A stretch of 64,000 nucleotides of DNA. Source: Aquanectria penicillioides (taxonomy: Eukaryota > Ascomycota > Sordariomycetes > Hypocreales > Nectriaceae). Below are positions 2,559 to 54,787 of the stretch, piece by piece. Positions within the stretch are counted from its first letter, which is position 1; the number at the start of each line of letters is the position of its first letter. Under the pieces are notes generated by a model. That model was not told the DNA's origin. It saw nothing but the letters and a program-made list of their open reading frames with translations, and ran no database searches. The position numbers and the translations under genes are program-made. Location: positions 3,410,001 through 3,474,000 of the forward strand of contig PYIU01000007.1 in the NCBI GenBank assembly GCA_003415625.1. The letters run 5' to 3'.

Positions 2559-3533
<975 letters not shown>

Positions 3534-4691: not shown

Positions 4692-4910
4692 CTATTCTTG
4701 ACGCGCGTTCTCCTCCTGAGCCCTCCATATACTATACATGCACACTGCGCATTCCAGATAAGACTTCCTTTGCACCCCTGCAATCGTCGGTTGGGGGCGG
4801 CATGCCCTGTAATCCCGGCGCGCAGGAGCACACTGGACTACTTGGTCGAAGCTGCCAAGGCCAGTGCCGCAGACCTCGCATTTCAGGATGGTTATTAGTC
4901 TAAGACACAT
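4692..4910 (-). CDS. seven-Cys mini-protein, array copy 1
   Basis: 72 residues. Cysteines fall at positions 2, 11, 14, 27, 37, 54 and 57, exactly as in the family pattern. The start at 4910 is chosen because Met-Cys is the common start of all copies; the frame stays open 42 codons further upstream but that extension is not conserved. The tail after the last Cys is M-Y-S-I-W-R-A-Q-E-E-N-A-R-Q-E, mixed charge. This is the copy closest to the ARF6-type gene and thus the 3'-most member of the array in transcription direction. A weak TATA-like element (minus-strand tctatatctt) lies near 5014-5022. Function unknown. Confidence 0.75.
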   Translation of the reverse strand: MCLRLITILKCEVCGTGLGSFDQVVQCAPARRDYRACRPQPTIAGVQRKSYLECAVCMYSIWRAQEENARQE

Positions 4911-5212
4911 GTTACCGGATCTTTTACGTTGGTGGAAGATTTCAAGATTGCCCAATGTCTTTGTAGTTGATGTACTATCAGTCTGCTGGACTTTACGGTG
5001 GAGTCTTGGGAGAAGATATAGAAGCAAAAGCGACACAAAGCACGACTGATGTCACGATTGCATTGGGAGATATGATTCTGTGAGTAGAAAGGGTTTTATT
5101 CACCATCTAGACAGAGTGATTCACACAATAGCCTTATATGCAAACTCTCCGCCTACGATACTTAGCCTATACACAAATTCATCCACTTACCTCACACGCA
5201 AAGATTGACAAC

Positions 5213-5452
5213 TTAGAACCCCAAAAGGCGACAAGCCGCATAGAGGATGTCTAGGACGCAATAAGGACAGCCAAGTTCAGGAGAAGTCTGCATCACTTCT
5301 GTGGGGACGTTCCCGATGTACCTTATCACATACATTTGGCCACAGGCTTGGTCCCGCTCGAGCGCCGTCGCGCACCACTTGATGACATCTCTACGAGAGA
5401 GTAGGGCATTGCAATAGGGGCATGTCCAGTGGAGTTCGTCTAAGAAGCACAT
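5213..5452 (-). CDS. seven-Cys mini-protein, array copy 2 (divergent last spacing)
   Basis: 79 residues. Cys 2, 11, 14, 27 and 37 follow the family, but the last knuckle (C-P-Y-C) lies 24 residues after Cys37 instead of 16, an 8-residue insertion. The first knuckle is also C-P-Y-C. The tail is hydrophobic (V-L-D-I-L-Y-A-A-C-R-L-L-G-F) with an extra Cys, unlike the charged tails of its neighbours. The frame is open upstream to 5581, but the Met-Cys at 5452 matches the family start. It is the most divergent intact member, so it may be an old copy or one with a changed role. A TATA-like box is at 5604-5613. Confidence 0.7.
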   Translation of the reverse strand: MCFLDELHWTCPYCNALLSRRDVIKWCATALERDQACGQMYVIRYIGNVPTEVMQTSPELGCPYCVLDILYAACRLLGF

Positions 5453-5603
5453 TTGGAACGATTCTACCAGATGCTTGGTAGATTGGCTGAGTTTGGTACG
5501 AGTTGCTTGGGTTCGTGGTTGGTAGAGTTTGCTAGAAGGAAAGGAAGAAGGGTCGAACAAGCAAGAAGAAGATATAGGCAAATTTCAAACGCTTAGTGAG
5601 AGG

Positions 5604-5613
5604 TTATAAATTA
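5604..5613 (-). promoter_or_regulatory. TATA-like box of array copy 2
   Basis: Minus-strand taatttataa about 155 bp upstream of the start codon at 5452. Confidence 0.35.
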
Positions 5614-6071
5614 TGTTCGTTTGATCGGTACATTGTTAGTTGGTATGAGCTGAACGCAAGCATTCGCCGTCCGGAACAACAAATACCGTACTTGGACCAT
5701 CTCTAGATTAGGCACCAGAACAGCCATAAGCAACACATGCACTGAGAAGTAGCAGCTTCATCTTCGCACCTCTCATAGTAGTTCCACGTTGAATTCTCGT
5801 TGAGTGATAACTGCATGTCCTAGGATGTTCTTTAACATGAGGCATCTTCGCCTGGCTGCAGATCTCTGGTATGCGATCAAGGATATTTACAACATCCAGA
5901 TAATGAAAATAATAATTCTATCCTCAATGTTGGTAGGCAAAAGAAATGACGCTAAATTGACTGCCTTTTTCTTTTATATTGTGCAACCAAGGCCAACGAG
6001 GCAAGGGCAGACATTTGGCAAGGAAGCACAAATGTTTCTACGACGCGGCTAGCATACAGCTATCTAGGGCC

Positions 6072-6290
6072 CTAGAATTGCCAATTCAAGTTTCGGCGAC
6101 GCCGAGCTCTCGCTTCCTTGCAATGCTCACAGTCGCTACTGGGCAACTCGTCATCCAGCCGCACCACGCCCGGTTCGGCACAGGGGCGGCCAGCTTGGAC
6201 GGCGGCGTGGCACCATTTGGTGCGTTCTGCCACGCCCAAGGTGCGCTCGCAGCGGTCGCATTTGAACTTGACAAGGTAAAAGGTACACAT
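6072..6290 (-). CDS. seven-Cys mini-protein, array copy 3
   Basis: 72 residues with all seven family cysteines in register (C-D-R-C first knuckle, C-E-H-C last knuckle). Trp at 26 precedes Cys27, as in copies 2 and 7 (K/E-W-C). The tail is strongly basic (K-E-A-R-A-R-R-R-R-N-L-N-W-Q-F), so nucleic acid or acidic partner binding is possible, but that is inference. The start at 6290 is the Met-Cys; a longer open frame to 6350 has no family support. A good TATA-like box is at 6433-6440. Confidence 0.75.
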   Translation of the reverse strand: MCTFYLVKFKCDRCERTLGVAERTKWCHAAVQAGRPCAEPGVVRLDDELPSSDCEHCKEARARRRRNLNWQF

Positions 6291-6432
6291 TTCTGTTGTT
6301 GATTGGTGACAGTATTGGTTGTGAAGAGAAGTCCTGGGAGTTGTGTCCAAGACTAGCGTTTCTGCTGGCTTGGCTCAATGTTAGGAGGCGTGTGTGGTTG
6401 GAAGACACAGAAGAAGAATAAACAGGAGATAG

Positions 6433-6440
6433 TTATATAC
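6433..6440 (-). promoter_or_regulatory. TATA-like box of array copy 3
   Basis: Minus-strand gtatataa about 145 bp upstream of the start codon at 6290. Confidence 0.4.
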
Positions 6441-6490
6441 CTATTCAATCACGTTCACCCGATATGAAGAAAGCATGATCATGTGATTAA

Positions 6491-6715
6491 CTACCTATCA
6501 CTTTGGCGATTGAGGCGTCTCCTCGCCAATGCTCGCTGTTCCTGACACCGGGGGCATCGATTCACGGCCAGTTTGACGTCGTCCTGAATCCGCGATTTGA
6601 GCTGGCAATCGCGGCCGGTTTCAAATGCCCTGTCGCACCTGTCAATGTCGCTGTGGTTACCTAGCTCATTGCCGCAGTTCTCGCAGGTCCATTTGGTGAA
6701 AACCCGAACGCACAT
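6491..6715 (-). CDS. seven-Cys mini-protein, array copy 4
   Basis: 74 residues beginning Met-Cys, cysteines exactly in family register (C-E-N-C and C-P-R-C knuckles). The tail is basic (Q-E-Q-R-A-L-A-R-R-R-L-N-R-Q-S-D-R). Only 200 bp separate its stop from copy 3, so its 3' UTR must be close to the promoter of copy 3. A TATA-like box is at 6859-6867. No signal peptide or hydrophobic segment is visible. Function unknown. Confidence 0.75.
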   Translation of the reverse strand: MCVRVFTKWTCENCGNELGNHSDIDRCDRAFETGRDCQLKSRIQDDVKLAVNRCPRCQEQRALARRRLNRQSDR

Positions 6716-6858
6716 ACTTTGATATGGGTTCCTTTTTCTATAGGTGAGTCTCTGAGGGAATTTGATGAGAAATTTCTGTTGTAACGCTAATCCAATGCCT
6801 ATGATTCTGTCGTTTATGATGGAAGATTCAGGGATGGGAGAACGGTGTGACTCCGCTT

Positions 6859-6867
6859 GATATATGA
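6859..6867 (-). promoter_or_regulatory. TATA-like box of array copy 4
   Basis: Minus-strand tcatatatc about 146 bp upstream of the start codon at 6715. Confidence 0.35.
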
Positions 6868-7097
6868 TGCTTGGTTTTTTCTTTTGTCACACAGCATGTT
6901 GTCCAGAACGCCTATCTCGCACCATTCCTTTGTCCAGTGAACCATGTCATTCGACAACAATTCACTTCAAAGACTTTCGAGTCATTTTGGATGAATTGTT
7001 CTGGAGCTCCATTGTAAGCGCTTGTCCTCACCTGACCTGAACATCGCTCTGGTCACCGAACATCATTCCTTCAATGGACTCAACCCAATCCCGACCC

Positions 7098-7286
7098 TCA
7101 CTGAGTTGCTATACAGCAAAAGTGACAGGTACCTTCGTCTACCAGCTTCGACTTCACAACATAGGCCATGTTCTCGCAAAGTTCCCTGGCCTTGTTTGCC
7201 CGCACGCAGTGCTCGACGTATTTGCCATAGCCGGCCAAGGCGCCGCACAGGACGCACCGCAGACGCATCTTTATGTGTGTGCACAT
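7098..7286 (-). CDS. seven-Cys mini-protein, array copy 5 (shortest, no tail)
   Basis: 62 residues: essentially the bare cysteine core, ending five residues after the last knuckle (C-H-F-C-C-I-A-T-Q) with one additional Cys. All seven family cysteines are in register. This copy shows that the tail is dispensable for maintaining the core, so the cysteine domain is probably the folded unit. A TATA-like element (minus gttataaag) lies near 7368-7376, closer than in other copies. Longer plus-strand frames overlapping it lack any motif and are judged shadows. Confidence 0.75.
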   Translation of the reverse strand: MCTHIKMRLRCVLCGALAGYGKYVEHCVRANKARELCENMAYVVKSKLVDEGTCHFCCIATQ

Positions 7287-7556
7287 TTCTTATATATCTG
7301 CATCGAGGATCGCGGTTGGATATAGATGAGAATACTGCAGATCTATTGAATCATAGGGATTCGATGCCTTTATAACACTTTCTCGATCTTACGCCGGCTC
7401 TCAAGCATAATATTTATGTACGGTCTGGATCCGATCCATGGTCACAAAACATGTTACTTGAGGTGTACATGGATGCAAAATTGAACCTTGTGATAGAGGG
7501 TGCTACGGCTATAGAGCTAGACTGTTTAAGCCCATCCCTTCGGTATCAACTTAACA

Positions 7557-7751
7557 TCACAATTGTGTCTGTGTTTGCCTTCTACAATAAAGACAATTCC
7601 GAGAGCTGACATATTTCGACCTTTGAACGTCATAGAGATTCGTGCAATTGTTGGATTGGATTGCCACAGTACACATCTCTACGTATCCATCGTAGCCGAT
7701 TACCCTCCGGCAACGGCGGCACTTGAGCGATTCTAAAACTCTGTAGCACAT
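7557..7751 (-). CDS. seven-Cys mini-protein, array copy 6
   Basis: 64 residues. First knuckle C-R-R-C, last knuckle C-L-Y-C. The fourth-to-fifth cysteine spacing is 8 instead of 9, the only other spacing deviation in the array besides copy 2; the following x16 spacing is kept. The short tail is R-R-Q-T-Q-T-Q-L. The core resembles copy 5 around V-I-G-Y-D-G-Y-V-E-M-C versus A-G-Y-G-K-Y-V-E-H-C, suggesting these neighbours are close relatives. A TATA-like box is at 7870-7879. Confidence 0.75.
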   Translation of the reverse strand: MCYRVLESLKCRRCRRVIGYDGYVEMCTVAIQSNNCTNLYDVQRSKYVSSRNCLYCRRQTQTQL

Positions 7752-7869
7752 TTTGAGGGGTTTGGAAGTTTACGTGAACGAGGTTAAGCTGGATTCTGCG
7801 ACGGGAAGGTCATGGGCTTGACGGTGTTGGTTTGTTAGAGATATGGGCTTCGTGTTAAGCGATTGGGTA

Positions 7870-7879
7870 GTATATATAG
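7870..7879 (-). promoter_or_regulatory. TATA-like box of array copy 6
   Basis: Minus-strand ctatatatac about 122 bp upstream of the start codon at 7751. Confidence 0.42.
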
Positions 7880-8121
7880 CCATCAAGGAGATGTGATTCA
7901 CTACGGAGTGAGGGCAATTCACCAACCGTTCAATCCTCATGTGACACTGACCAAACCAAAGCATCCATTCCCGTATAATCTTCAAGGAGCTTGGCATTAT
8001 CTGATCCACGGCTTTGGTCTGACCTTGATTGACGGAGCTTGGATCCAGGCCTCTTCACGGCGGATGAAAGCAAAGGCAGCACTAATACGAGGCCGACCCA
8101 TGTAGTGCAATCAACCACCAG

Positions 8122-8370
8122 TTACTCGGGTGTCTTCGATCCAACGTCCTCTCCCCGTTTACTTCCACTATTGTTCTGGGTAGCCCGTATCAACAGCTGG
8201 CACATGCCACAATTAATATTCTCGATCCCAATGCGATAACATATGTCTCTCATCGGGTTGCACAGAACCCCCGAGCTTTGTGAGTTGGCGCACCACTCGA
8301 TACTGGTGGTGGAACTCAGTGAAACGCGACACGCACCGCAGATTAGGCGCACCTCGCGATTTAGACACAT
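8122..8370 (-). CDS. seven-Cys mini-protein, array copy 7
   Basis: 82 residues with all seven cysteines in register and one additional Cys between Cys37 and Cys54. Knuckles are C-G-A-C and C-G-M-C. The tail is long, polar and Ser/Gly/Asn-rich (ends G-S-K-T-P-E), probably disordered. A TATA-like box is at 8492-8500, about 125 bp before the start. No other gene separates it from copy 6 (370 bp) or copy 8 (467 bp). Confidence 0.75.
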   Translation of the reverse strand: MCLNREVRLICGACRVSLSSTTSIEWCANSQSSGVLCNPMRDICYRIGIENINCGMCQLLIRATQNNSGSKRGEDVGSKTPE

Positions 8371-8491
8371 TGCAAATTAAAGAGGTTGAGCCATATGATA
8401 TTAGTCATGTGATGGTATGGATGTTAGTGAAGCCCTCGTCAATGCGCTCGGGCGGGTTATTCTGTAGTTGGATCGAGATCTGAAATGAGAT

Positions 8492-8500
8492 CTATATAAT
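8492..8500 (-). promoter_or_regulatory. TATA-like box of array copy 7
   Basis: Minus-strand attatatag about 125 bp upstream of the start codon at 8370. Confidence 0.38.
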
Positions 8501-8837
8501 TGAGTATAGGGCTAAATTTATAGTGGAATATTAATAGAATGATTCTAGAATTAGGGAGTTGAAAGCATCACACGCGCCAATCCGCCAGATATACCTTCTA
8601 TTACAAAGCCAGTGACATGGCTATTCACAGGGACACAGATTCAGCCTGAGACATTAACCTCTAGGATACCCCTTCACTCTCTATCGTGTTTCGATTTGGG
8701 GTCGTATAACCGGCGAAACCCGGATAGTATCTCACAATTGCACTGAGGGTACACATCTCATCACGACTTGGCAACGATTTTTCCATGTTACTTCATGGCT
8801 GAGTGTATTGTGAACCTTCTATTTCTTATTTCTGTCC

Positions 8838-9047
8838 TTATTCCTCTTCCATCTTGTCTTTTTCTGCATCCTGCTCACACAAAAAGCAGTCCTCGGAGCC
8901 TACGTATCGCATCGTCTCATTCAGCTCCAATTGTTTGCACGTCTTCCCCTTTTTCTTGGCGTTGGCGCATTTTACGGTCCATTTGGCGGTACCAATCATC
9001 GTATCGCAAACTTCACAGTTGGTATACTCTTTATTGAGCTGGCACAT
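8838..9047 (-). CDS. seven-Cys mini-protein, array copy 8
   Basis: 69 residues, all seven cysteines in register (C-E-V-C, C-F-L-C). The x9 loop is Lys-rich (A-N-A-K-K-K-G-K-T) while the tail is acidic (E-Q-D-A-E-K-D-K-M-E-E-E), opposite to copies 3, 4, 9 and 10. The start at 9047 is Met-Cys. A TATA-like element is at 9149-9158. Plus-strand frames over this interval are longer but low in complexity and lack motifs. Confidence 0.75.
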   Translation of the reverse strand: MCQLNKEYTNCEVCDTMIGTAKWTVKCANAKKKGKTCKQLELNETMRYVGSEDCFLCEQDAEKDKMEEE

Positions 9048-9249
9048 GCTGACCAGAGGGTGCGGGGTCTTGGCTGTGTGGATAACTTCGTGTTGGTTCC
9101 AGGTTCGGCAATGAATGCTAGGATAGATGAATGTTGTAGACGAGTAGGTTTTAAATATGAGAAATCTCGGTAGAAAGTCCTGTACTTTATAATACTTGAG
9201 CCAGCTTAATCACGGTACAAAGGATGCAATCACCGTCCATTATTCACCA

Positions 9250-9459
9250 TCACCTGCGTCTTCTCCGCCTTGCCTTCCTATTCCTCAAACACTCATCACA
9301 TTGCTCCTTTCCAATTCTAGTAGTGGTCTTGACGGTTTCCAGGTGGGGACATTGAAGATGGGGTCGGGTCCTTTGGTAGCATTCCACAAACCTTTGGTCA
9401 AATATGACGATGTAGCCGCAATCCTGGCAGACGGATCTGGTTTCATGCAAGATGCACAT
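9250..9459 (-). CDS. seven-Cys mini-protein, array copy 9 (poly-Arg tail)
   Basis: 69 residues with all cysteines in register (C-Q-D-C, C-D-E-C). It ends in a run of six Arg (L-R-N-R-K-A-R-R-R-R-R-R), a candidate nuclear-localisation or nucleic-acid-binding tail. The segment G-Y-I-V-I-F-D-Q-R-F-V-E-C is close to copy 10 (G-Y-V-I-E-H-G-Q-E-F-L-E-C), indicating recent common origin of the two adjacent genes. A TATA-like box is at 9578-9587. Confidence 0.78.
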   Translation of the reverse strand: MCILHETRSVCQDCGYIVIFDQRFVECYQRTRPHLQCPHLETVKTTTRIGKEQCDECLRNRKARRRRRR

Positions 9460-9577
9460 AATGGATTACTTTCGTGCAAGATGAAGACGATTGAGAGGAA
9501 TATCGCCGGCTTAGTTTCGATACTTTAATAGACACTTTGAGATACTTCGTCAAAGACCCGAAGAATGGTATGGTAAG

Positions 9578-9587
9578 TTTTATATTA
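9578..9587 (-). promoter_or_regulatory. TATA-like box of array copy 9
   Basis: Minus-strand taatataaaa about 122 bp upstream of the start codon at 9459. Confidence 0.4.
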
Positions 9588-9649
9588 ACGAAGGCAGCTT
9601 AATTGCAAGCGTATCTGGTTAACTGAGGCAACAACCTGCTGTCCATCAC

Positions 9650-9850
9650 TCATCTTCTCTGGTTTCTACGTCTCGCTCTGCACCTTTTGCAATTACTTTT
9701 GTCCACCTTGACCTCCTCAAACGTGCACCTCCATCGAGTGCACAGGATACCGTTTCGCCGCGCTGCAAGGCATTCGAGGAATTCCTGGCCATGCTCAATG
9801 ACGTATCCGCACTCCTCACACACGGTTTTTTTCTCGACCAATTCACACAT
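9650..9850 (-). CDS. seven-Cys mini-protein, array copy 10 (basic tail)
   Basis: 66 residues, cysteines at 2, 11, 14, 27, 37, 54 and 57 plus an extra Cys42. Knuckles C-E-E-C and C-K-R-C; tail R-A-R-R-R-N-Q-R-R. It is a close relative of copy 9. TATA-like sequences lie near 9935-9943 and closer at about 9888-9897. A second minus-strand frame over the same bases lacks the cysteine pattern and is rejected. Confidence 0.78.
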   Translation of the reverse strand: MCELVEKKTVCEECGYVIEHGQEFLECLAARRNGILCTRWRCTFEEVKVDKSNCKRCRARRRNQRR

Positions 9851-10030
9851 TTCTGTAAATTGCGTTGATACGATGTGTCAAGTCTGGATATATGGTGTGG
9901 ATATTACTTTGATGGGGTGGCATTGTCTGACGCTAAAATATAGGGCATGTGGTCCATTTATGTTATTTCTAAACGACTGAATAGCTGTCTCCATATACCC
10001 AACTCCCCAAATCACGTCCTTGTAATGAGA

Positions 10031-10246
10031 CTATTCATCGTGCCCCTCGTCCCTTCTTTCTCTCTGTGGTCTCAAACAGATCCTGCAGTTTTCCTTTGAT
10101 TTAAATATAGTGCTCTTGCATTCGCCCATTTCCGTGCACAGACTGTTTTCGCTAAACGCCTTGTCGCACTGTTGGTAATATGCCTCGACATCAAGTAGCC
10201 GGAGGCATTCCGCACAAGCCATGAACTTTGTCACCTCTACACACAT
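10031..10246 (-). CDS. seven-Cys mini-protein, array copy 11
   Basis: 71 residues with all seven cysteines in register (C-A-E-C, C-R-I-C) and an extra Cys in the x16 loop (G-E-C-K). The K-S-K-E-N-C before the last knuckle matches copies 14 and 15 (K-E-N-C). The tail is mixed charge (L-R-P-Q-R-E-R-R-D-E-G-H-D-E). This is the one copy for which I see no clear TATA-like box in the expected 85-155 bp window. Confidence 0.76.
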   Translation of the reverse strand: MCVEVTKFMACAECLRLLDVEAYYQQCDKAFSENSLCTEMGECKSTIFKSKENCRICLRPQRERRDEGHDE

Positions 10247-10424
10247 TTTGTATTACGTCAAGGCGGAATATTTGACAAATATTTCAGCATGTCTTTGATA
10301 GCGGGATGACTATTCGCTTTGTTGGTACAACTCGCATCTGAGGGAGTACGATGGTTCTGTTATGGAAGGTTCATTTTGATTCACCTCAATGTCATTCTCC
10401 CATTCAAGGAACAATCTGCCAAAC

Positions 10425-10778
10425 TTATTTGAACTTTCTTAACCAATCTCGTTCTTTTACTATGAATCTTTCCTCTTCTTCTTTCTCCTCCTCCTCGTCA
10501 TCCTCCTCCTCGTCATCGTCTTCATCTTCATCTTCATCTTCATCTTCATCTTCCTCCTCCTCACGCTCACTTTTCTTCTCATCATTCTCCGATTCTTCCC
10601 TTTCGATACAAGCACGACATTGGTCCTCGTCCGTCAAGCTTGTCCCACCAACTCGGATCATGAACGGGCAGTGTACGTTGGTCTTTTCGACGTCCTCGCA
10701 TGGTTTGATGTCTTGTTTAACGTTGACCAAGGAGCCACATTTTCTGCAGTGCACAGATGTCTCAATGAGCTTGCACAT
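10425..10778 (-). CDS. seven-Cys mini-protein, array copy 12 with long acidic tail
   Basis: 117 residues, the longest member. The first 57 residues carry the seven cysteines in register (C-R-K-C, C-R-A-C). Then follows a tail of roughly 40 nearly continuous Glu/Asp, encoded by a TTC/ATC/CTC trinucleotide repeat (plus strand about 10,480-10,565), and a basic-aromatic end (E-R-D-W-L-R-K-F-K). The start at 10778 is Met-Cys; the upstream frame to 10835 encodes a hydrophobic stretch that is probably untranslated. Replication slippage in the repeat is the likely source of the tail. A TATA-like box is at 10906-10915. Confidence 0.75.
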   Translation of the reverse strand: MCKLIETSVHCRKCGSLVNVKQDIKPCEDVEKTNVHCPFMIRVGGTSLTDEDQCRACIEREESENDEKKSEREEEEDEDEDEDEDEDDDEEEDDEEEEKEEEERFIVKERDWLRKFK

Positions 10779-10905
10779 TCTTAGCTGAAAGAAGATGAAT
10801 ATTGCTAGGAAGGGAAATTTGAAATAGTAGATCACCGCGCATTAGGTCCCCAGGTCTTTCCTGGTTTGTTTAGATTTCAAACCTGGACTTCCCCTGAGAG
10901 TCATC

Positions 10906-10915
10906 ATTTTATATC
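10906..10915 (-). promoter_or_regulatory. TATA-like box of array copy 12
   Basis: Minus-strand gatataaaat about 130 bp upstream of the start codon at 10778; best match to a canonical TATA box in the array. Confidence 0.45.
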
Positions 10916-11096
10916 CCTGCTAGTCATGCTCTCTTCACAGTTACCCAGCGCATCGAGTACTATGTCAACACCGTATCTAATTCATAGGCGCTCTTGACTA
11001 TTGCCAATATCCCGGCCAGGAAGACCATCCTATTCGACATCCTCACCTGCTTGACGGTGTTCATGCCAAAACAAGGTTGGCCCAGTCATCCTCGTC

Positions 11097-11249
11097 TCAC
11101 AGAGGGTAATCTCGTTTACAATGTTTGTCGTGAAGCCGTCGCTTTTTGTATACGTAGATGGTGACCGTTCTGGAGCATTCTGATTGGTCTTGAAGGATTG
11201 GATGTTTGGGTGTTGGTGGTTCTGTTACAAGATGTTCAATGTTCGACAT
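11097..11249 (-). pseudogene. decayed copy of the seven-Cys mini-protein family
   Basis: A 50-codon minus-strand frame in the 755-bp gap between copies 12 and 13 starts M-S-N-I-E-H-L-V, comparable to M-C-V-I-D-H-V-R of copy 13. It ends with Cys, an 18-residue gap, then H-C-K-R, comparable to N-C-K-R-C of copy 10. Cys2, the first knuckle and the last Cys are lost and the middle is shortened. The position at the regular spacing and the same strand support a dead copy. The similarity is weak, so a chance frame is possible. Confidence 0.4.
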
Positions 11250-11533
11250 TGTTGAGCGAGCTGACCCCATGGCTTGTGTGGAAATAAGAAACAAGGGCAA
11301 ATAGTGGAAATAAATGCGAGAAAATTATCCATTACATGCTGCGCCCATTATTCATACCCGTTCAATAACCCAGAGTTTGGCTTCGATCACGGCTTTTCGT
11401 CACAACCACTACCATTCACTCCACAACCGTTGTCTTGAAAAGTCAAGGCAAGTTCCATATTCAAAGACTTCATAAACAGTGTATTACTATTTACTCGTCA
11501 TTACCTTTCTATTCACTTGCCTCCTTTACCAAA

Positions 11534-11734
11534 TCACTTCGTAGGCACCTTCTTCTTCGGCGTACACTTGGGACAATCCACTTTGGACACAAAGTTCCTG
11601 TATGGATTGTGTGTCACCTGTCCGCAGGGAGTTTTGGTCTTCTGCACGTGCTCGCACGGGAACTTCTTCCTCTGATATGACAACTCGGCTCCGCACTGAG
11701 CGCAGATGCTGCGTACGTGGTCAATCACACACAT
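11534..11734 (-). CDS. seven-Cys mini-protein, array copy 13
   Basis: 66 residues, seven cysteines in register (C-A-Q-C, C-P-K-C). The x9 loop E-H-V-Q-K-T-K-T-P is close to that of copy 12 (E-D-V-E-K-T-N-V-H), again pairing neighbours. The tail is short and basic (T-P-K-K-K-V-P-T-K). Only a weak A/T-rich TATA-like stretch (11812-11824) is seen upstream. Function unknown. Confidence 0.76.
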   Translation of the reverse strand: MCVIDHVRSICAQCGAELSYQRKKFPCEHVQKTKTPCGQVTHNPYRNFVSKVDCPKCTPKKKVPTK

Positions 11735-12063
11735 GTTTCCTATGGGGTAAATGCCGAGGGTGTAGGTTGGTGACGTTATTGGGCAATTTAGGCCGTGTGT
11801 ACTGTCTGGTGACTATTTTTATTCGGGTGGTCGAGTTTTGGGATGTTCACGAGGTCCTATTTGTAGAGATGGGCTCGACGCAGGTCACTCATTTGAGCCA
11901 GGCGTTCTTTAAATTGACAGTTATTCACCATCTGGGCCAAGCCGAAGCTTGCCAGAACGGCCAGGTTTTCACAACTGCGGAATTTATCCCATATCCTTAG
12001 CCAGTGAAACCCGCCCGAACTTGTGGTCTCATTCGCTGCCGGCTTGAGGCAACGGTCAGCCAG

Positions 12064-12306
12064 CTACGTGTTTGGGGCTCTCCTTATCACCGATGGAATT
12101 TCACCGTTATCCCTACGCTTGCTCCAGCTTGGGTTACATTTCCAGCAATTCTCTTTGACATCGAACTTATCATCCCTGATGGCTGGGATGTCCTGGCATA
12201 CGGTGGCCTTCTTGCGAGCCTTGTCACACTGTCTGAATTCGCTATACCCGCCTAGCTTGGTGTGACACACCTCGCATACAATACCGTCTTCAAGGATGTA
12301 ACACAT
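12064..12306 (-). CDS. seven-Cys mini-protein, array copy 14
   Basis: 80 residues from the Met-Cys at 12306; the frame is open to 12414 but only the core is family-conserved. All seven cysteines are in register (C-E-V-C, C-W-K-C). The stretch K-E-N-C-W-K-C-N-P resembles K-E-N-C-P-L-C-N-P of copy 15, the best pair in the array. The tail is basic and polar (S-K-R-R-D-N-G, then I-R-R-A-P-N-T). A strong TATA-like box is at 12432-12441. Confidence 0.77.
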   Translation of the reverse strand: MCYILEDGIVCEVCHTKLGGYSEFRQCDKARKKATVCQDIPAIRDDKFDVKENCWKCNPSWSKRRDNGEIPSVIRRAPNT

Positions 12307-12431
12307 CTGGGCAGAAAAGGACAGGGCTTTGAGGGAAATGGAGTAAAGACGCTTTTCCGACGGTTTGTCGCTTGTTAAATAGAATATTCGGAACCCCTCG
12401 GATATTACTCGCACATGTGGACAGGGCGGCC

Positions 12432-12441
12432 AATATATATG
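12432..12441 (-). promoter_or_regulatory. TATA-like box of array copy 14
   Basis: Minus-strand catatatatt about 130 bp upstream of the start codon at 12306. Confidence 0.42.
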
Positions 12442-12515
12442 CAGATTGCTCTGATTTCGTCAATCTCTAAAGATTATCCCTAGTATTCACATTCCCTAAC
12501 AAGCCATGGCACTAC

Positions 12516-12758
12516 TCATGCTGTCTTCTCCCCCAGCTCAATCTGAAATATGTCATCATCATCCTGGTCCTCCTGTTTCGGTGGATTACAAAGAGGGCAG
12601 TTTTCCTTGGGTTCAAAAATATCCCTTCTCACAGTCCTCCTGTTGTTACAGAACTGGCCCAGCTCCTTTGCGGCGGAACAACTAATAAATCGATTATTCC
12701 AGCTCAGGATACCGCGGCACTCTTCACATTTGGACGGGGACATGATGAAATAGCACAT
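12516..12758 (-). CDS. seven-Cys mini-protein, array copy 15
   Basis: 80 residues from Met-Cys at 12758; the upstream frame to 12926 is open but not conserved. Cysteines are in register (C-E-E-C, C-P-L-C). The tail is acidic (Q-E-D-Q-D-D-D-D-I-F) with a final I-E-L-G-E-K-T-A. It is the first array member on the side of the SSN3 kinase gene, which is transcribed in the same direction 560 bp upstream. A good TATA-like box (minus ttttatatattg) lies at 12872-12883. Confidence 0.77.
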   Translation of the reverse strand: MCYFIMSPSKCEECRGILSWNNRFISCSAAKELGQFCNNRRTVRRDIFEPKENCPLCNPPKQEDQDDDDIFQIELGEKTA

Positions 12759-13316: not shown

Positions 13317-14651
13317 TCATTCCTTGACTCGCTTAGATGGCCGTATCAGCGAATCGTCAGGCAGTCCACTTCGCTTCGTGCCCGGCAAACTGCTCGTGCG
13401 AATGTCGTTGTCGTCCTGGCTCACGCGGCGGTGTGGATACTCGTTCTTGCAACCCTCGAAGCAGTTGGCGCTGACACGATCGCCAGTGCTGAAGAAGGGC
13501 GACTGCAGCGCCTGGGCTGCCGTCAGACGTTTCGCGGGGTCGTACTCCAGCAGACCGGCAAGGAGCTTGTATCCCTCGGAGCCGAGGGATTGGAGAGGGG
13601 CACTACCGTTGGGCCCGCCCGAGTGGGAGATGGTGCCGTAGTACCACTTTTCAAGATTGGAGGTCGTCGGGGGTTGCTGGGAACGTCCGCCGTAATGGCC
13701 GTGGTGGTGGTTATGGTGGTGGTGGTGCGAAGCCATGGAGTTGGCCAAGGTGTTGAGTTGGTTGTACTCGGGCATGGTCGGCAGCAAGGGCCAGCGCTCC
13801 TTGGTTGGCAGGCCCATGATCTCGACAATCTTCTGCATCTGGTTGCGCTGAAAGGGAACCGTCTTCTTGCTGTCCATCTTAGCTTCCTCCCCCTTGAAAA
13901 TCGGTCGCAGGGACAGCAGTTCGGCGAAAATGCAGCCGATGGCCCACATGTCAATGGCGGGTGTGTAGTGATAGGACCCAAGAATGAGTTCTGGAGCACG
14001 GTACCAAATCGTCACGACTACCTTATCGCCGCTGAAGAGAGAGTGCAGGGGTTTGTCGAACCGACGGGCCAAGCCGAGGTCGCCGATCTTGACCTCGCCA
14101 GCGGATGTAACCATGATGTTGGCGGGCTTCAAGTCACGGTGCAGGACCCAGTTGGTGTGCAAGTACTGGCAGCCGTTGAGGAGTTGAAACATGATGCTCT
14201 TGACCGTGGCGGGCGGGATGGGATGTCGGGGTTGTTGTGTGTGATGGTGAATGATTTGAAGCAGGTCGTGTTCGGCATACTCAAAGACCATGTAGATGCA
14301 TTTATCCTCCAGCATGATTTCGCAGAGCCTGATGACGTTGCCGTGGCCCAGTTCACTACATAAGCTCATCTCACGGACGGCACTCTGAGAAATTCCGGTG
14401 TAGCTGATCTGCTCGCCTTCCTTGTCGGGCTTGAACTTCTTGATGGCAAACTCGCCAGGTGGCTTGCCGCCGCGGCCGACGGCCTTGTAGACGCGGCCAT
14501 AGGTACCGGAGCTGATGAAGCCAACGATGCGATACCTGTCGGTGATGCGAACCTTTGGTTGGTAGCCGGGAGAGCGGTCATGAGAGTCTAGATGACGGTG
14601 TTGGTAAGCGTGAGCTGGGAAAGCAACGCCATGACGGGGGCGGAGAGGCAT
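13317..14651 (-). CDS. ssn3: serine/threonine protein kinase SSN3 (CDK8/SRB10 of Mediator)
   Basis: 444 residues in one exon. SSN3/CDK8 is the cyclin-C-dependent kinase of the Mediator kinase module, acting in the nucleus on RNA polymerase II transcription. Kinase domain from about residue 38: Gly loop S-S-G-T-Y-G-R-V, catalytic Lys at ~71 (F-A-I-K-K-F-K), helix C S-Q-S-A-V-R-E-M (the CDK8 form of PSTAIRE), H-R-D-L-K-P-A-N at ~171-178, D-L-G at ~191 in place of DFG, and V-V-V-T-I-W-Y-R-A-P-E without a T-loop Thr, as expected for CDK8. A His-rich insert (~310-320) and a basic C-terminal tail (P-S-K-R-V-K-E) follow. Length fits fungal SSN3. Long frames on the opposite strand are its shadows. 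Confidence 0.95.
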   Translation of the reverse strand: MPLRPRHGVAFPAHAYQHRHLDSHDRSPGYQPKVRITDRYRIVGFISSGTYGRVYKAVGRGGKPPGEFAIKKFKPDKEGEQISYTGISQSAVREMSLCSELGHGNVIRLCEIMLEDKCIYMVFEYAEHDLLQIIHHHTQQPRHPIPPATVKSIMFQLLNGCQYLHTNWVLHRDLKPANIMVTSAGEVKIGDLGLARRFDKPLHSLFSGDKVVVTIWYRAPELILGSYHYTPAIDMWAIGCIFAELLSLRPIFKGEEAKMDSKKTVPFQRNQMQKIVEIMGLPTKERWPLLPTMPEYNQLNTLANSMASHHHHHNHHHGHYGGRSQQPPTTSNLEKWYYGTISHSGGPNGSAPLQSLGSEGYKLLAGLLEYDPAKRLTAAQALQSPFFSTGDRVSANCFEGCKNEYPHRRVSQDDNDIRTSSLPGTKRSGLPDDSLIRPSKRVKE

Positions 14652-43214: not shown

Positions 43215-43297
43215 GCCCGGTTAGCTCAATCGGTAGAGCGTGAGACTCTTACGAGTACGCGATCTCAAGGTTGCGGGTTCGACCCCCGCATCGGGCT
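43215..43297 (+). tRNA. tRNA-Lys(CTT) with a 10-nt intron
   Basis: The cloverleaf is complete. Acceptor stem GCCCGGT pairs with ATCGGGC (43290-43296). D arm is TAGCTCAATCGGTAGAGCG, anticodon stem TGAGA/TCTCA, and anticodon CTT lies at 43248-43250. T arm is TGCGGGTTCGACCCCCGCA, discriminator T. Bases 43252-43261 (cgagtacgcg) interrupt the anticodon loop one base 3' of the anticodon, the canonical position of nuclear tRNA introns. A and B boxes of the internal Pol III promoter are intact. Confidence 0.93.
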
Positions 43298-46729: not shown

Positions 46730-47875
46730 AAGCCTAACTAAAGGCTTGTCTTTAGGTGCTATTGTAAGGCTATTCTAACCTTCTTTATATATATATTCTT
46801 TATATAATTATAGAGTTATTCTTTTTTTATTGCTAGGGCGATTATTTGCTTAAATAGGACTTTTTTACTATAGTTAAGGGCATTACTATAAGCTCTTATA
46901 GGCACTATTTGCATTTACTTTAGTGTTTTTAGTATAGTATTTTTTTTAATTTTAGCCTTAATTTTAAGGTATTAATAAAAAAGTAATGCAATAGGCCTAT
47001 TAATAGCTTTATAAATATATTAATAATATTTTTAATAAAAGGGATATATTATAGTTTAACTATATTATTTTTAATAGCCTTTTTTATAAAGTAATATTGC
47101 ATTTAAATATACTTTATATAAGTATAGAATTTAAGATTATATATTAGCTTTATAGTGCTTTAGTTATTTATAAAGATTATTATTAAAGCAATTAATAGGC
47201 TATTAAATTCCTTTATAAAGCTTTTTATTTATATAATTTATAATATTGCTTTTATTAATATATAGTATTTAGCTTCTATTAAGGACTTTATTATAGTCTT
47301 TTAATACTTATTAAACTATATAATTAGGCCTTTATTTATAAGGAATATATATCCTTTAGTTAATTATACTATCTTTAGGCAGCTAGTATAGTTAAAGTTA
47401 TAATAGCTATAAAGATTAAATGGATTGCTATATAACTTTTCCTTAAGGCAGTAATAATAGATAGAGTAATTAAGGCTCCCTTTAATGTATTGCAATATCC
47501 TTTTTATAGCCTTAAGTTATTACTTACTTAAGCTATTTAAGAAGTATGCCTAAAGACTATATATAAAAGCTAAATTAGGCTAGCTTTACTATAAAAAATA
47601 GTTAATTTTTCCTACTATTAATATATATTCTTTATTAATAGCCTTTATGCTAAAGATATTAATTGCCTTAATTAAGTAATAGATTTCTATTTCTATTAAT
47701 ATATTTATAGCTTTATAGTTAAAGTATTTAAATTACTTAAGGATACTTATTATATAGTCTCTTTATAATAGTATAAGCAATCTATCTTTTTTTACTATAA
47801 TAGCTATACTTAAAAAAAGCTTAGGAAATTTAAGTAACTTTATCTTTACTTTTTATATAAGTTTATTAATAAAGG

Positions 47876-47950
47876 TATTTATATTTTTATTATTATTAGT
47901 AACTATAAGTATATTATTTATATATATAGCTATAATAATCTTCTTTACTT
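47876..47950 (-). pseudogene. reverse transcriptase relic with YVDD changed to YINN
   Basis: The minus strand reads V-K-K-I-I-I-A-I-Y-I-N-N-I-L-I-V-T-N, the copia RT catalytic block with V to I and both Asp to Asn. Each change is the G-to-A result expected from RIP. The Y-I-N-N codons are at 47913-47924. Loss of both catalytic Asp makes it inactive. Confidence 0.75.
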
Positions 47951-49673
47951 AATCTATATAGATTGCAGTATTGCTCTATAGCCTCTTAAGGCCTAATTTA
48001 TTAAGTATTTTCCTTAATTTTTTCTATTACTATTAGGCACTTTACTTAAGGCTATATAGGGCTATAAATAACTATATAATATACTTAATGCCTTATTTAT
48101 AGCCTACTTTTTTAGCTAAGTGTTTATACTTTAGATCCTTAAAGAACTTATTAAGTAAAGAGAAGATTATAATATAAATATCTTTTTTTAGCTCTTTATT
48201 TAAATATACTATAATTATATTATTCTATAATAGCTTCTTTTTAGTCTATATAGTATAAATAAATAGCATTCTTTAGAAGTTAGCTCTTATAGTTAAAAAG
48301 AAGGTTTTTTAATAATTAATGCCTTCTTTTTGCATAAAGCTATATACTATAAGTTAAGCTTTATATATAACTATTATACTATTTTTATCTCTTTTATATT
48401 AATTTACTTACTTTACTATAAGTAGTCTCTTGCCTTTTAGTAACTCCCTCTTTAGGATAAATTTAAGTATACCTTTATTAATAAAGGTATAAATCTCCTT
48501 AAAGAATGCCTCTTTTTAAAGGTTAGTATTTAGCCAATTAAAAGCATTATAAACTATAGCTAAATTGGCATTAATATAGGCAGCTAGAATTTACTTCTTT
48601 ATAGCTATTACTAGTATTATAAGGTATCTCTTAAAGTTATTAAATGCTCCTTTTAGCTATAATTAAATAATCTTTTTACCTTTTACTATAGGCAGTAAAA
48701 TAGGCTTATAGAATACTATATATATTATTATAATAACTTTCTTTATTTTAGCGTTTTAAATTCTATATGCTTTAGTTCCTTAAAATCCTATAAAGATTTC
48801 TTTTTAACTATAAGGCAGTATCTTTTTAAATTTATTGCACTTTTTCTATTTAATATAAATAAATGCCTTTAATCCTAGAATCTATAGATACTTAATATTT
48901 AATATATATTCCTTTTTTAGGATTAAATCTATAAAGTAAACCTTATAAAGGGTCTTTTAGTTTAGTAATCTTATTGCTATAATATTAGCAATATATATAA
49001 CTATAAGGATAATCTCTTTTTATAGCCTAAAAGGGATATTTATTGCTATTATTATACTTTTTGCCTTTTTTTAAATTATATAGTTTGCCTATTTAATAAA
49101 GCCATTCTATTTATAGCTATATAATAGTATAATAATTATAGAGATCTCTATCTTTAAAAGGAGTTTATTAACCTTTCTATTAATAAATTTATAGCTGCTA
49201 TTAAACTATATCTTTTAGGGTAAATTATAGGCTATAATAGTTCTAAATACTAAAAGATCTTTTTTTATTAAGATAGTAGTATTGCTTTTTTTCTTAAGTA
49301 AATTACTATAAAAGTAATAGCTTTTATTATTAATTATAAGCTTAAAATACCTTTTTCTATTATATATATATAGATTTAGCTTTATAAGATCTATATAAAA
49401 GAAATTAAGTATATAGTCTACTCTTTTTTATAGTATTTTTAGTAAGAACCTTATGCTTTTAGCAAGCTTATAGTCTTTATAGGGTATATTAAGTAACTTA
49501 TAATTATTAAGCCTACCTTTTATAACCTTAAAGGTATAGTTAAGGGCTTTTTAATCTATATAAGTAAGTCTTTAGTACTATATTCTTGCCTTAAACTATT
49601 CTATCTATATTAGCATTATCTTAAGAGTAAAGTAATAGCTTATTGTACTTTCTATTGCTTTAAGTAAAAACCC

Positions 49674-49916
49674 TTAATTAAGGACATTAAAGATTATAAA
49701 GATCTTATTATTACTATTAAAAATCTTATTTTTAATTATATAACTATTAAAAAGATAGACTTTTTTATTAAAGATTACATTTAGTAGGAAATCTTTAATA
49801 AGGACTATATCTTTAAGTATTATAGTTCTTATTCTCTCTCCCTTTATAAATAGTATAACTATTGCTATTCCTATAGCTATAGGGTATATAGTGCCTTTAT
49901 CTATAAAAATTGGCAT
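49674..49916 (-). pseudogene. copia protease relic
   Basis: An 80-codon frame on the minus strand keeps the shape of the copia protease/pre-integrase junction: A-I-G-I-A-I-V-I-L-F, then I-I-L-K-D-I-V-L-I-K-D-F-L-L-N-V, comparable to the usual L-x-D-V-L-Y-V-P-x-x-x-x-N-L. The catalytic Asp-Ser-Gly is not inside this frame. It fixes the element's orientation and order. Confidence 0.55.
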
Positions 49917-51709
49917 TATTTTATTGAGTTTATACTATTTATTTTCTTTAAACTATTTAAAGTTATTAATAGTATATATATTAACTTTTAAGTCCTAAAG
50001 CTAGCAGTTTTTTTAATTAATAAGGCCTAATTCTATAGATATTAAAATAGTAATAAAGTTACTATTTCCTTTAGCCTTTAGTGCAATATTATTATTAATA
50101 TTAGGGGGATTATATAATTGCTATTTTAGTAGGCTAGAAATTATTACTATAGCTGCCTTTTCTATTAATAACCTTATAAAAGTATTACTAAAAAACTTCC
50201 TTGCTTTTAAGCCTTTATAGTATATAAAAATAGTATTATTATTATTATTAAAGTTATTTTTAGCTTTCTTTATATTTTTAGCACTTTACTTACTTAATTC
50301 TATATATAGAGCAGTCTTTTTAGTCTTTTTAATAGTTTTATTATTATTATCTTTTTTCTTTAACTTTTTATTTTTATTGCCTTTACTTTCCTTTTATAGA
50401 GATAGATAGTTCTTTATAATATAACCTTTTTAATTATAGTTAAAGTATTTATTGCTTTTAGGATCTCTTTTATAATTATTCTTTTTATTTAATTAAATAT
50501 TTATTTATATACCTTTTTTATTACTAAAGTCTTTACTTTTCTTTTAGAAAGTCTATAGACTTTTAGCTTTATTAATAAAGTCTTTTTGCATCTTATAGAT
50601 AGATTAATATTTCCCTTTTTACTTATAATTGCATTAAAGTGCATTTTACTTAAAAAAGACCTTTTTAATACTATTTATAAACCTTATCTTTTCTTAATAC
50701 TTAAAGAGCTTACTGCTAGCTTTAATAATGCTATTTATAATATAGCAAAAGTTATTAATATAACTTTAAACCCTTTATAGTTTCTTTAGAGTTAAAGACT
50801 TTAATTTTTAATAAAGGTTAGCTAGACTTTATTAAAACCTTATATTATTATACCTTTTTATTAATAGCTTAATAGCCTTTATATTAATCTTTATTAAAAA
50901 TAATAATAGCTTTAGTTTCTATAAAACTACTATTTTTATAGTAATAATTAAATATATTTCTTTTAAATATAAGATTTTAATCTCTTTATACTATTTAATA
51001 GCAATTATAGTATAAAAAAGATATCTTTTTTAAGCAGCTTAATTCTTTAATCCCTTAAGTATATTATCTCCTTTTATCTTAAAGTTAAAACTAATAAAAT
51101 CTTTAATTTTAATTAATTATAAGTTTATAATCTTCTTTTTGCTTAAAGTAGGCTCTATTAATATCTCTTTATTTCTTAAGAAACTAAATATTTTATTTAA
51201 AGCTCTTAAGGGCTCCTTTAAGATATAAAAAAGTTAGCTTTTTTAATACTTAAAGCTTTTATCTTTATTATTTTCTACTTTAAATTTTAATTTATCTTTA
51301 GGCTATATTTTATACTTAATCTTTAATTTATTTTTAATTTTTTAATTAAAATGCTTTTATAGCTTTTATATTTATTATATTATCTCTATTATTTATTGCA
51401 TTATAATACTTAAATTTAATTAAGTCTTTTATAAGTCCCCTTTAGTAGACTTTATTAACCTTTTAAAAAGAAATAAAAGATCCTTAAGATTATCTTCTCT
51501 TTTAGTAAGATCTTTTTTATTATTAATCTATTTAATTGCTTTAATAATAAAGATTAACTTTAGGGCTAGCTTTAAAGCTATTGCTTAAGTTTTAGGACTT
51601 TAACTAATTAATATTATAAGCGCTAACTTTAAGGGATAAACTTTAGGTTAATTTAAACCTTTTAAATAGCTATAATTTCTTCTTAAATTAAAGCTTTAGG
51701 CTTATAACC

Positions 51710-51968
51710 TATAAATAATATATAGGCATATATAGAAATGGTTATAGCAGGCAATATATGCAATAGGTTAGTCTAGATTAATTGGGATTTATAAGAAGCA
51801 GCTAGATAGTAGTTGCAGAATGCAATTACCTATTTATAGTGCAGGGATTCCCTTATGAGGATATATGGCCTTAAGACTTAGGCCCACAAGGCCCCTAAGG
51901 TCGGCTTGTGGCCGGCCGCTATGTCTGTAGCGGCGACTACCTTCGCCCGGCCGCTATATCCGTCAACA
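51710..51968 (-). repeat. right LTR (5' LTR of the minus-strand element), 259 bp
   Basis: Direct repeat of 46463-46721. Its outer (right) part is GC-rich and unmutated (gtagcggcgactaccttcgc), its inner (left) part is converted to A/T, the mirror image of the left LTR. Confidence 0.88.
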
Positions 51969-51973
51969 ATCTT
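51969..51973. repeat. target site duplication (ATCTT), right
   Basis: Matches 46458-46462. Confidence 0.8.
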
Positions 51974-52294
51974 AATATTTACCAACGAAAAAAATCAATC
52001 TATTTAAGTAGCATATATATATACTCAACCAACTGAAGTGTAGTTTATTTGATCTTAAGATGCTCTGATTTGTATTCATCATGCCGTTGTTTTGTTCGAC
52101 AATCATTAAAATCCTCATTTCTATCCACTGTCTGCATGTCACAATCTTTAAGCGAGCAGTTCGTCATAGTTAGACTGGGGAGAGTTGAGGGTACTATAGA
52201 CAAGTAAATTCTTAAAACTTGCATTAAAATGTGAGTAAAACCCTATGAGGACATAAGTATCTCATATCTAGTACTAGTAGGAAGGAAAGAAAGT
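51974..52294. other. spacer between retrotransposon and HET pseudogene
   Basis: Moderately A/T-rich, no gene. Confidence 0.55.
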
Positions 52295-54787
52295 CTATAC
52301 TAGGTTGAATATCTGCTCTTCATCTTCGAAAGCCTCCAACTCTCCATACATGATGCTGTCAACGTAACATTCGCCGACTAATTCGAACTTGTTCTGATCG
52401 CCTTCGCCCTCTGATTCAACAGGGCGTAGCAAGTAGGGGACATTGCCACCGGCCATGAGCACAATTACATCACCCTCCTTGCCACGCCACGGACATAGGC
52501 CGTATTTGCCGTCAGATGCCACAAAGAAGCACTCGTCGAGGCATGTAGTGACACTCTCGGTTTCATACCACTCGGTTTCAGGGCCGGTAGGGGGCAGCAA
52601 TGCTTTCAGACCTGGACGCTTAAAGTATCCCCAGTGGGCTCGTAAATGGTCGAAGTACTCGGAATGAGATTTATCAACCTGGATTTCTGCGCTCTTCGCT
52701 ATCCACCAACCGGACAGAGCACATGGGTCGAAAATCTTGTCAAAGACATTCATGACATCTTCTCGTACGTCTGGTTTCTTGTCATATGGATACATAGTAT
52801 CCATGGGAAAATGCCCTATTGAGGCAATGGTGGCCACCTTTTGTCCCAAAAGGCGCAGGGTGAAGGGGTCCGAATCTTTGAGAAGTGATAGGTCTGGCCC
52901 TCTACCACATGATGCAAAGAAACTGAACTGTTTATCAAGGGTAGCATGGGCCCATTTTGAGCTTCCGCTTCCACTGACAGCCCAGGTTGGTTTGATGCAC
53001 GGTAATGTTTCCTTGTCGGCGTACCTGGCTCTTCTCTATGCCCGACCAGGTTGTGCATGGATTGTTGAAAGTATTGAAAGGGAATTGTGCTCTCGGATCC
53101 ACCATCTAGTGAAGTCGGCAAAGACCTGCTCGGCGGGTTTGCGGTAGTTGGGTCGGATCATGTCGTCAAGTGCTCCAGCTTCACATGTCTCGGATCCAAA
53201 AGTTAGCAGGGCAAATAGTTTATCCCTCGAATCTGTGGCTTTGAGGTCGAGACCCTCAAGGAACACATCTAGAATACCTGCCAACCCCGTGGATTCGCCT
53301 CCCTCTCCTGTTTGAACCCTGTTACGGGGTTTGATAGATTTCCAGATGGATGGCATCAGATTTTCGGAGTGCAGGTGCGGTTGCTGTCGGAGGTGTTCTG
53401 GGCTTTCCAGAAGCTCGCCAACTACCACCAACTCCTCCCATGGAATCGTTTCTCTTGAGTAGTGAACGAGCGCTTTTCGTGACAGCAACGCTTCTTGAAT
53501 GACCCAAACACGCCTAAACCAAGGGTTCATAAAAAACGCCCCCATAAACTTGGAAACGTGGGTTGCGCCAAAACCCCCGGCAAATTCGATGACTTCGCGA
53601 GTGAAGTCCTTTTCGCAGGCATTAAAGATCTCGTAGATGCCCTTGAATGATTTATGGCCAATCTTTCCTAAGAGCTCCCTGTCGACTTCAACTTCTTTAG
53701 GCCGTAATTTGTGAGGCGTCCCAGAACACTGACAGTCGGCGGCTCCTGGACACTGTCTGTTGTTGAAGTTGTAGATTTCGCGGATGACCCTCAGGCATGC
53801 TTCTTCGCCTGGATTTCCCTCTCCGAGCCAAATATCTACAACTTTTGCCAAGGAGAAGATTTCGCTCATCAAACCGACCTGTTGTGACCTCTCTGGGAGA
53901 TCGGCTTGATTGATACAAACAGCATCGATCCAAATGTTTAAGGCCGTTTGCGGATGCCGAAGTCGTCGTATGGCTGTGAATAACGAGCTCGTTACGCTAA
54001 AGACCGGGTAAGTTGTCGAATCAGCCGCAAGGCCTTCTGATGGCTTGATAAATATGTCTGCCCGATCGGACGGATCTCCCCAGCAATATGATAAGGCGTG
54101 AAAGTCCAAGGATTGTGATACAACTTCAGGGAGCGTGGTTCTGTTGAAGAATGCTTTAATTGTATCTTCAAAGTTTCCAGGCTCTATGGTAAGAAGTCGG
54201 ATTTCCTGGGAAGTCGAGTCTAGACGTGTGGGGTAGTGAGAGGCATTCGAAACGAAAGACGTTAGGGCTGCATCATCCGACGCCTCCTTGACTTCGTATT
54301 CGATTTTGATCTCACACTCTTTGATGATGTTAACCCATCCGTAATACGTGGCCTTGGGGATGAGCTGAACAATGTCGCCGGCTCTGATGTCCTTGACCAC
54401 GGTGCCGCTTAGCACTGGGGGTTGTTTATCCATTGACAGTGGTGGCGAAAGAACTCAGGGTTCCCGCAACGGTTGTGAGCAACGGTCAGGGTGCGGAGAT
54501 CAGAACGACCGTCTGAGCCCTGGACGGCCACATCGAACCAGGTGTATGAGAGGGTTTTGTCATCCGACCAGCCTGTAACGTGGTGTTAGAACTAAGTCGG
54601 TGGTTGAAAGACGCTCGGGAGGAAAGTAAGGACCTTGGTCGCGAGACAGAATGCTGAAGTTAACTGCGACGATTGATTTTGCTTCGCTCGGCACCTTGAG
54701 TTCGACATACGGCCGGCGGGGACAGTGATGATGGACCTGGATGAGCTCACTGCGCTTTGCGAAGCATTCTTTAATGGTGGGTGCCAT
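52295..54787 (-). pseudogene. HET-domain (heterokaryon incompatibility) gene, broken by a stop and a frameshift
   Basis: Exon 1 (54787-54634, M-A-P-T-I-K-E-C) and exon 2 (from 54572) encode an N-terminal domain (Y-T-W-F-D-V-A-V-Q). At a C run near 54412-54418 the frame slips by one base into the frame holding the rest. The HET domain follows, with F-H-A-L-S-Y-C-W-G-D, I-W-I-D-A-V-C-I-N-Q, R-S-Q-Q-V-G-L-M and R-R-V-W-V-I-Q-E-A. A TAG at 53036-53038 stands where Trp is expected, and the same frame stays open beyond it to 52295, carrying the usual C-terminal G-D-V-I-V-L-M-A-G-G block. On the other strand the stop is CCA to CTA, a CpA-to-TpA change. A start at 54433 would allow a shorter protein, so residual function is not excluded. 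Confidence 0.82.

Follow-up and report, generated by a model that had tools for sequence, protein, structure and literature searches.

Several kinds of cysteine-patterned proteins have been described. Fungal Zn2Cys6 transcription factors carry the pattern C-x2-C-x6-C-x5-12-C-x2-C-x6-8-C, metallothioneins have a very high cysteine content and no fold of their own, zinc ribbons have two CxxC knuckles in common, and many secreted fungal cysteine-rich proteins are small, cysteine-patterned and divergent, with genes both in tandem and dispersed. We have analysed a 64,000-nucleotide stretch of the genome of the nectriaceous fungus Aquanectria penicillioides (hereafter the window; C11:3410001-3474000, contig PYIU01000007.1 of assembly GCA_003415625.1), which holds an array of 15 predicted minus-strand, single-frame genes for cysteine-patterned mini-proteins, flanked by a gene for an ADP-ribosylation factor (ARF) and by an SSN3 gene. 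With a probability of roughly 0.58, we consider this array to be the principal known locus of a so far unnamed family, made up of intracellular mini-proteins that zinc holds together. Two of the described kinds were rejected directly: the Zn2Cys6 spacings differ from those of all 15 window copies, and, against a metallothionein, the array core has seven invariant cysteines in 57 residues and a confident folded model.

Array and cysteine pattern

A six-frame regular-expression scan of the window gave 13 matches to the strict pattern MC-x8-C-x2-C-x12-C-x9-C-x16-C-x2-C, all on the minus strand and all inside 4692-12758, where they span 4740 to 12758, and none in the rest of the 64,000 nucleotides. 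Two near copies, W10 (picked up with a looser pattern) and W14, are each off in one spacing. All 15 genes were thus found as an earlier note, made from the DNA alone, had described them: on one strand, thirteen strict and two deviating in a single spacing. The only invariant columns in the 15 copies are M1, C2, C11, C14, C27, C37, C54 and C57, and the mean column identity is 23%; both C11-x2-C14 and C54-x2-C57, two CxxC knuckles within one small domain, are kept in every copy. Each protein is composed of a core of 55-65 residues and a variable tail. Among 23 family members (the 15 window copies and eight from elsewhere in the genome), residue 18 is always hydrophobic, the seven invariant cysteines stand alone in 15 members and are joined by an eighth in the other 8, and the tail after the last CxxC has 5-60 residues, with a net charge of +2 or more in 14 members, 0 or +1 in four and negative in five.

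Chance open frames are ruled out by a shuffle test and by residue frequencies. The strict motif was absent from 60 dinucleotide-preserving shuffles of the window (13 observed), its expectation from residue frequencies is 8e-9, and the first-half motif C-x8-C-x2-C-x12-C has 15 occurrences where the shuffles averaged 0.03 (at most 1). The likeness extends beyond the cysteines, the mean pairwise phmmer score among the 23 cores being 10.2 bits versus 3.2 bits when the non-cysteine residues of the targets were shuffled. Constraint on the cysteines, which had been proposed before, is borne out by their codons: every core cysteine is kept though both TGC (105) and TGT (64) are used among the 169 cysteine codons of the 23 genes, eighth cysteines included. 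Of the 23 genes, 21 have a purine at position -3 (A in 13 and G in 8, with C in the other 2; p=3e-5 for even odds). In the window copies the core GC content by codon position is 0.47/0.44/0.63, compared with 0.40-0.51 for the 14 spacers, which are 178-755 bases long. Six of the 15 window genes have a stop in frame 1-9 codons upstream of the ATG, so that the ATG there must be the start unless the transcript is spliced; an upstream or spliced start was rejected on these nearby stops and on the lack of a consistent AG before the ATG. A shared promoter word was not found in the upstream regions, the best 6-mer occurring in 7 of 15, versus a shuffle maximum of 5.9 on average and up to 8. These results, all drawn from sequence, support a true gene family with constraint on every core cysteine.

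Predicted fold and zinc site

The AlphaFold2 (AF2) model of W01 has a mean predicted local distance difference test score (pLDDT) of 86 overall, with 91-97 per ten-residue block over residues 1-60, and the model of W12 residues 1-61 has 83.5. The two proteins are 25% identical and are predicted to have similar compact folds with the order strands 1 and 2, helix and strand 3 in common. The predicted order is strand 1 (residues 2-11), the C11-x2-C14 knuckle, strand 2 (17-25), C27, a short helix (28-33), C37, strand 3 and C54-x2-C57. Among the Foldseek matches listed, the first for both models was the Zn(Cys)4 site of PerR (2fe3; E=0.55, probability 0.18 and E=0.065, probability 0.85), with residues 5-60 and 3-61 of the models aligned to 90-142 and 88-143 of PerR. 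Reckoned from the ends of these ranges in a weak structural match, the register puts C11/C14 on PerR 96/99 and C54/C57 on 136/139, the residues that bind zinc in PerR.

We favour an intracellular protein in which one zinc would be bound by the two CxxC pairs as a Zn(Cys)4 knot; a structural Zn(Cys)4 is the simplest chemical solution where proteins inside the cell keep CxxC pairs invariant. The earlier note had preferred an intracellular zinc-binding protein, and on the AF2 models and the PerR match this is still the best reading. The remaining cysteines, C2, C27 and C37, may cluster at the opposite end of the hairpin, where they would make up a second site, of metal or thiol type. Methionine aminopeptidase normally removes a methionine that precedes cysteine. 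Such removal would leave Cys2 at the N-terminus, with its free amine as a possible fourth ligand of the second site, which would account for the constant cysteine at residue 2 and yields a concrete and cheap prediction on metal binding. The knot would act as a rigid scaffold on which loops and charged tails vary freely, and the paralogues may bind different intracellular partners, either protein or nucleic acid; since basic and strongly acidic tails both occur, a single common nucleic-acid role is not indicated. If this is right, nearly every residue except the seven cysteines is free to change in a sizeable unnamed family, which would offer a natural experiment on the minimum of sequence that a metal-held fold requires.

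The same cysteines may be read as a thiol or metal switch, in which the C2/C27/C37 site reacts with a metal, an oxidant or, through the N-terminal cysteine, oxygen, and thereby alters protein stability or binding. A cysteine directly follows the start in all 24 intact genes found, and the zinc site of PerR, the first structural match, is termed a redox switch in the title of 2fe3. However, no homologue or enzyme links the family to such a role, the N-terminal cysteine itself is putative, and a plain structural site accounts for the data equally well; we therefore regard a switch as doubtful.

Export without a classical signal, as disulfide-stabilised effectors or antimicrobial peptides, is likewise improbable. 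The small size, cysteine pattern, divergence and tandem and dispersed genes would suit it, as would the eighth cysteine in 8 of 23 members, where pairing is possible, and the scoloptoxins, toxins of centipedes, which were matched weakly by profile (E=0.1). Against these, no hydrophobic, signal-like N-terminus was seen by eye among the 24 members, in agreement with the previous claim that signal peptides are absent; the invariant cysteines number seven, with nothing further in 15 of 23 members; and paired CxxC motifs are typical of zinc sites, of which the first structural match is one. The zinc-held intracellular protein accordingly remains our preferred reading.

Members elsewhere and history of the family

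The genome (53.76 Mb in 13 contigs) was searched with single proteins and the stretches to which they pointed were then read; the member counts are lower bounds. Outside the array, at least nine further intact genes were found at four other places, giving an intact total of at least 24 in five places in all (Table 1), and the family is thus not confined to the array, which the earlier note, made from the window, could not show. The gene on C10, which had been left out of profile building, matches profile positions 1-57 at E=3e-9 in an 801-base stretch. Core lengths outside the array are 55-59 residues (eight genes) and spacings are more variable than within it, the strict pattern being kept in one of these eight, at C1:6,527,507. 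All 24 intact genes start with Met-Cys; the search queries themselves began with MC, and one scan pattern that did not require M gave no intact copy lacking it. Weak matches at C13:768 kb, C6:2669 kb and C7:5575 kb were read and rejected as members, and a match with two stops, at C2:720 kb, lies outside the count.

A probable relic without a start methionine and carrying TGA lies at C11:143477-143596. This relic, and the lack of DNA similarity among array copies, are what a set of non-functional open frames or decaying copies would offer; that explanation is very improbable, as 24 intact frames keep all seven cysteines, and the genes measured use both cysteine codons and have good start contexts and GC-rich third positions.

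Neighbouring genes in the array are more alike than expected (mean 17.9 bits versus 13.1 in random order, p=0.0046 in 20,000 permutations) and the array label is clustered on a tree of the 23 cores (4 changes, equally low in 10 of 500 shuffles), which together point to tandem duplication. None of the 20 inner branches of this tree is starred and 13 are open; with no well-supported inner branch, the order of duplications is not recoverable from it. In a self-blastn of the array, no two copies resembled each other in DNA at E<=0.01; three pairs of 25-base repeats do occur, as do repeats in which the W04 tail is foremost, and none of them is a duplication tract. Protein identity is 28-33% in four core pairs, namely the three with the highest scores and one other, and the synonymous rate (dS) is undefined in all four core pairs computed, a fifth having been skipped for its gap. 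Because of this lack of DNA similarity, low protein identity and undefined dS, the expansion appears to be old. The proposal of an expanding family is therefore upheld as to tandem duplication and not as to recent growth, and the family is best read, from its sequences, as old and fast-diverging, with copies produced by old tandem duplication and dispersal.

Window positions 47001-52000 form an AT-rich block of 5 kb (19-26% GC) with TpA/ApT of 1.4-1.5 and (CpA+TpG)/(ApC+GpT) of 0.32-0.74, values which we take to be the mark of repeat-induced point mutation. The array has no such mark in the same two indices (0.68 and 1.28). The block is a strong signature of a genome that mutates repeats, or formerly did, and in a genome mutating close repeats mainly divergent duplicates would be expected to persist.

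Extreme divergence around a fixed scaffold and variable tails would also fit a diversified set of intracellular recognition proteins, each paralogue with a partner of its own, that acts in allorecognition or genome conflict, and a HET-domain gene (53036-54433, minus strand; PF06985, E=5e-26) adjoins the AT-rich block. That gene, however, lies 40 kb from the array, and fungi of this kind commonly have HET genes. The Pfam scans gave no match to a known allorecognition domain: PF06985 is absent from the matches of the 15 members (25 of 26 families listed), those of ten members being seen in full. The dN/dS comparison of copies, which the earlier note had proposed, was run and is undefined with dS, leaving selection unmeasurable and an arms-race or self/non-self function unproven. 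We hold a recognition set to be unlikely. Somewhat less likely still is a wider view, in which the fungal fold family is new and has two metal sites, the bare N-terminal cysteine (thiol and amine) providing one; it would serve as a rigid scaffold for diversified recognition proteins inside the cell, active in self/non-self or genome conflict. Should the paralogues vary from strain to strain, the array, set between two housekeeping genes, would be a candidate conflict locus that is easily compared across species.

Table 1. Array genes and flanks (window positions) and further family members (contig positions).
Feature	Position	Strand	Description
W01	12516..12758	-	80 aa, strict motif, acidic tail; AF2 model
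W02	12064..12306	-	80 aa, strict motif; closest relative of W01 (36.5 bits)
W03	11534..11734	-	66 aa, strict motif, basic tail
W04	10425..10778	-	117 aa, strict motif, 60-residue tail with 39 D/E
W05	10031..10246	-	71 aa, strict motif
W06	9650..9850	-	66 aa, strict motif, basic tail
W07	9250..9459	-	69 aa, strict motif, Arg-rich tail
W08	8838..9047	-	69 aa, strict motif, acidic tail
W09	8122..8370	-	82 aa, strict motif
W10	7557..7751	-	64 aa, one spacing short (x8 for x9)
W11	7098..7286	-	62 aa, strict motif, 5-residue tail
W12	6491..6715	-	74 aa, strict motif, basic tail; AF2 model
W13	6072..6290	-	72 aa, strict motif, basic tail
W14	5213..5452	-	79 aa, one spacing long (x24 for x16)
W15	4692..4910	-	72 aa, strict motif
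Left flank, ARF gene exons	2835..3339	+	non-member; from ORFs
Right flank, SSN3 (CDK8) kinase gene	13317..14651	-	non-member; protein match
Four further members	C7:479,716-484,214		read stretch
Three further members	C1:6,522,984-6,527,743		read stretch
One further member	C7:3,489,431-3,489,622		read stretch
One further member	C10:1.875 Mb		read stretch

The left-flank open reading frames (ORFs) are presumably those of ARF, the name having been given from the sequence. The acidic tail of W04 (10425-10607) is a run of GAA/GAT/GAG codons, and a plus-strand poly-Ser frame at 10351-10788 is its shadow. In the C1 cluster, an open frame with DUF7600 (PF24539; C1:6524435-6525487) lies between the first and second members, and the cluster is flanked by an acyltransferase on one side and an eIF3 zeta gene on the other. 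About 6 kb separate the lone copy at C7:3.49 Mb from MED1, and SSN3 is the neighbour of the array; both genes are Mediator-linked, perhaps by coincidence. Elsewhere in the window, a tRNA with a two-base anticodon call, perhaps intron-containing, was found at 43215-43297 (plus strand).

Comparison with described families

The family is unnamed in the libraries searched by sequence (Pfam, NCBIfam, PHROG and PDB profiles), and the first three accord with the previous statement that no named family has this pattern. Scans of the 15 window copies against these three gave, among the matches listed (25 of 26 families for Pfam), matches of single members only at E<=0.1, the best at E=0.0009, and no Pfam cut-off was reached in the ten of 15 members for which scores against cut-offs were shown. 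The PDB profile search gave no significant match (best eL37, E=0.06). With all 15 members as queries of a protein database, none of 7993 scored candidates reached E<=1, in a candidate list that acidic and Arg-rich tails may have filled, and a word search of the database gave no candidate sharing three words with three cores. The database does contain close fungal relatives, as seen from the SSN3 control, the flank protein being 92% identical to SSN3 of Neonectria ditissima and Thelonectria olida. Since the word filter misses proteins so divergent, these negatives do not establish restriction to one lineage. Many unnamed small fungal proteins start with MC and have more conserved cysteines or CG[HC], and the array family may belong with them.

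Several Pfam zinc-ribbon models (e.g. Zn_ribbon_6 and Zn_Ribbon_TF), which share the two CxxC knuckles, appeared as sub-threshold matches, with a best E of 0.005 over the 15 members and, at E<=0.1, no more than one member per listed model. The array family differs from them in three extra cysteines and in a predicted helix between the knuckles. The zinc domain of Sobemovirus P1 (RYMV P1, 6ty0/6xv2) was matched by Foldseek at E 0.29-3.5; it belongs to another organism and another role, and this likeness is likely to be convergence.

With the C-terminal domain of PerR/Fur (2fe3, 2rgv), the aligned ranges put all four CxxC cysteines of the array family on the PerR zinc ligands. PerR/Fur has a winged-helix DNA-binding domain, whereas the array proteins, at 62-117 aa and with the first CxxC starting at residue 11, are without one, and the array family has three additional invariant cysteines, one of them at residue 2. 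The likeness to this bacterial site is weak, with E of 0.065 at best, and is likely to be convergent.

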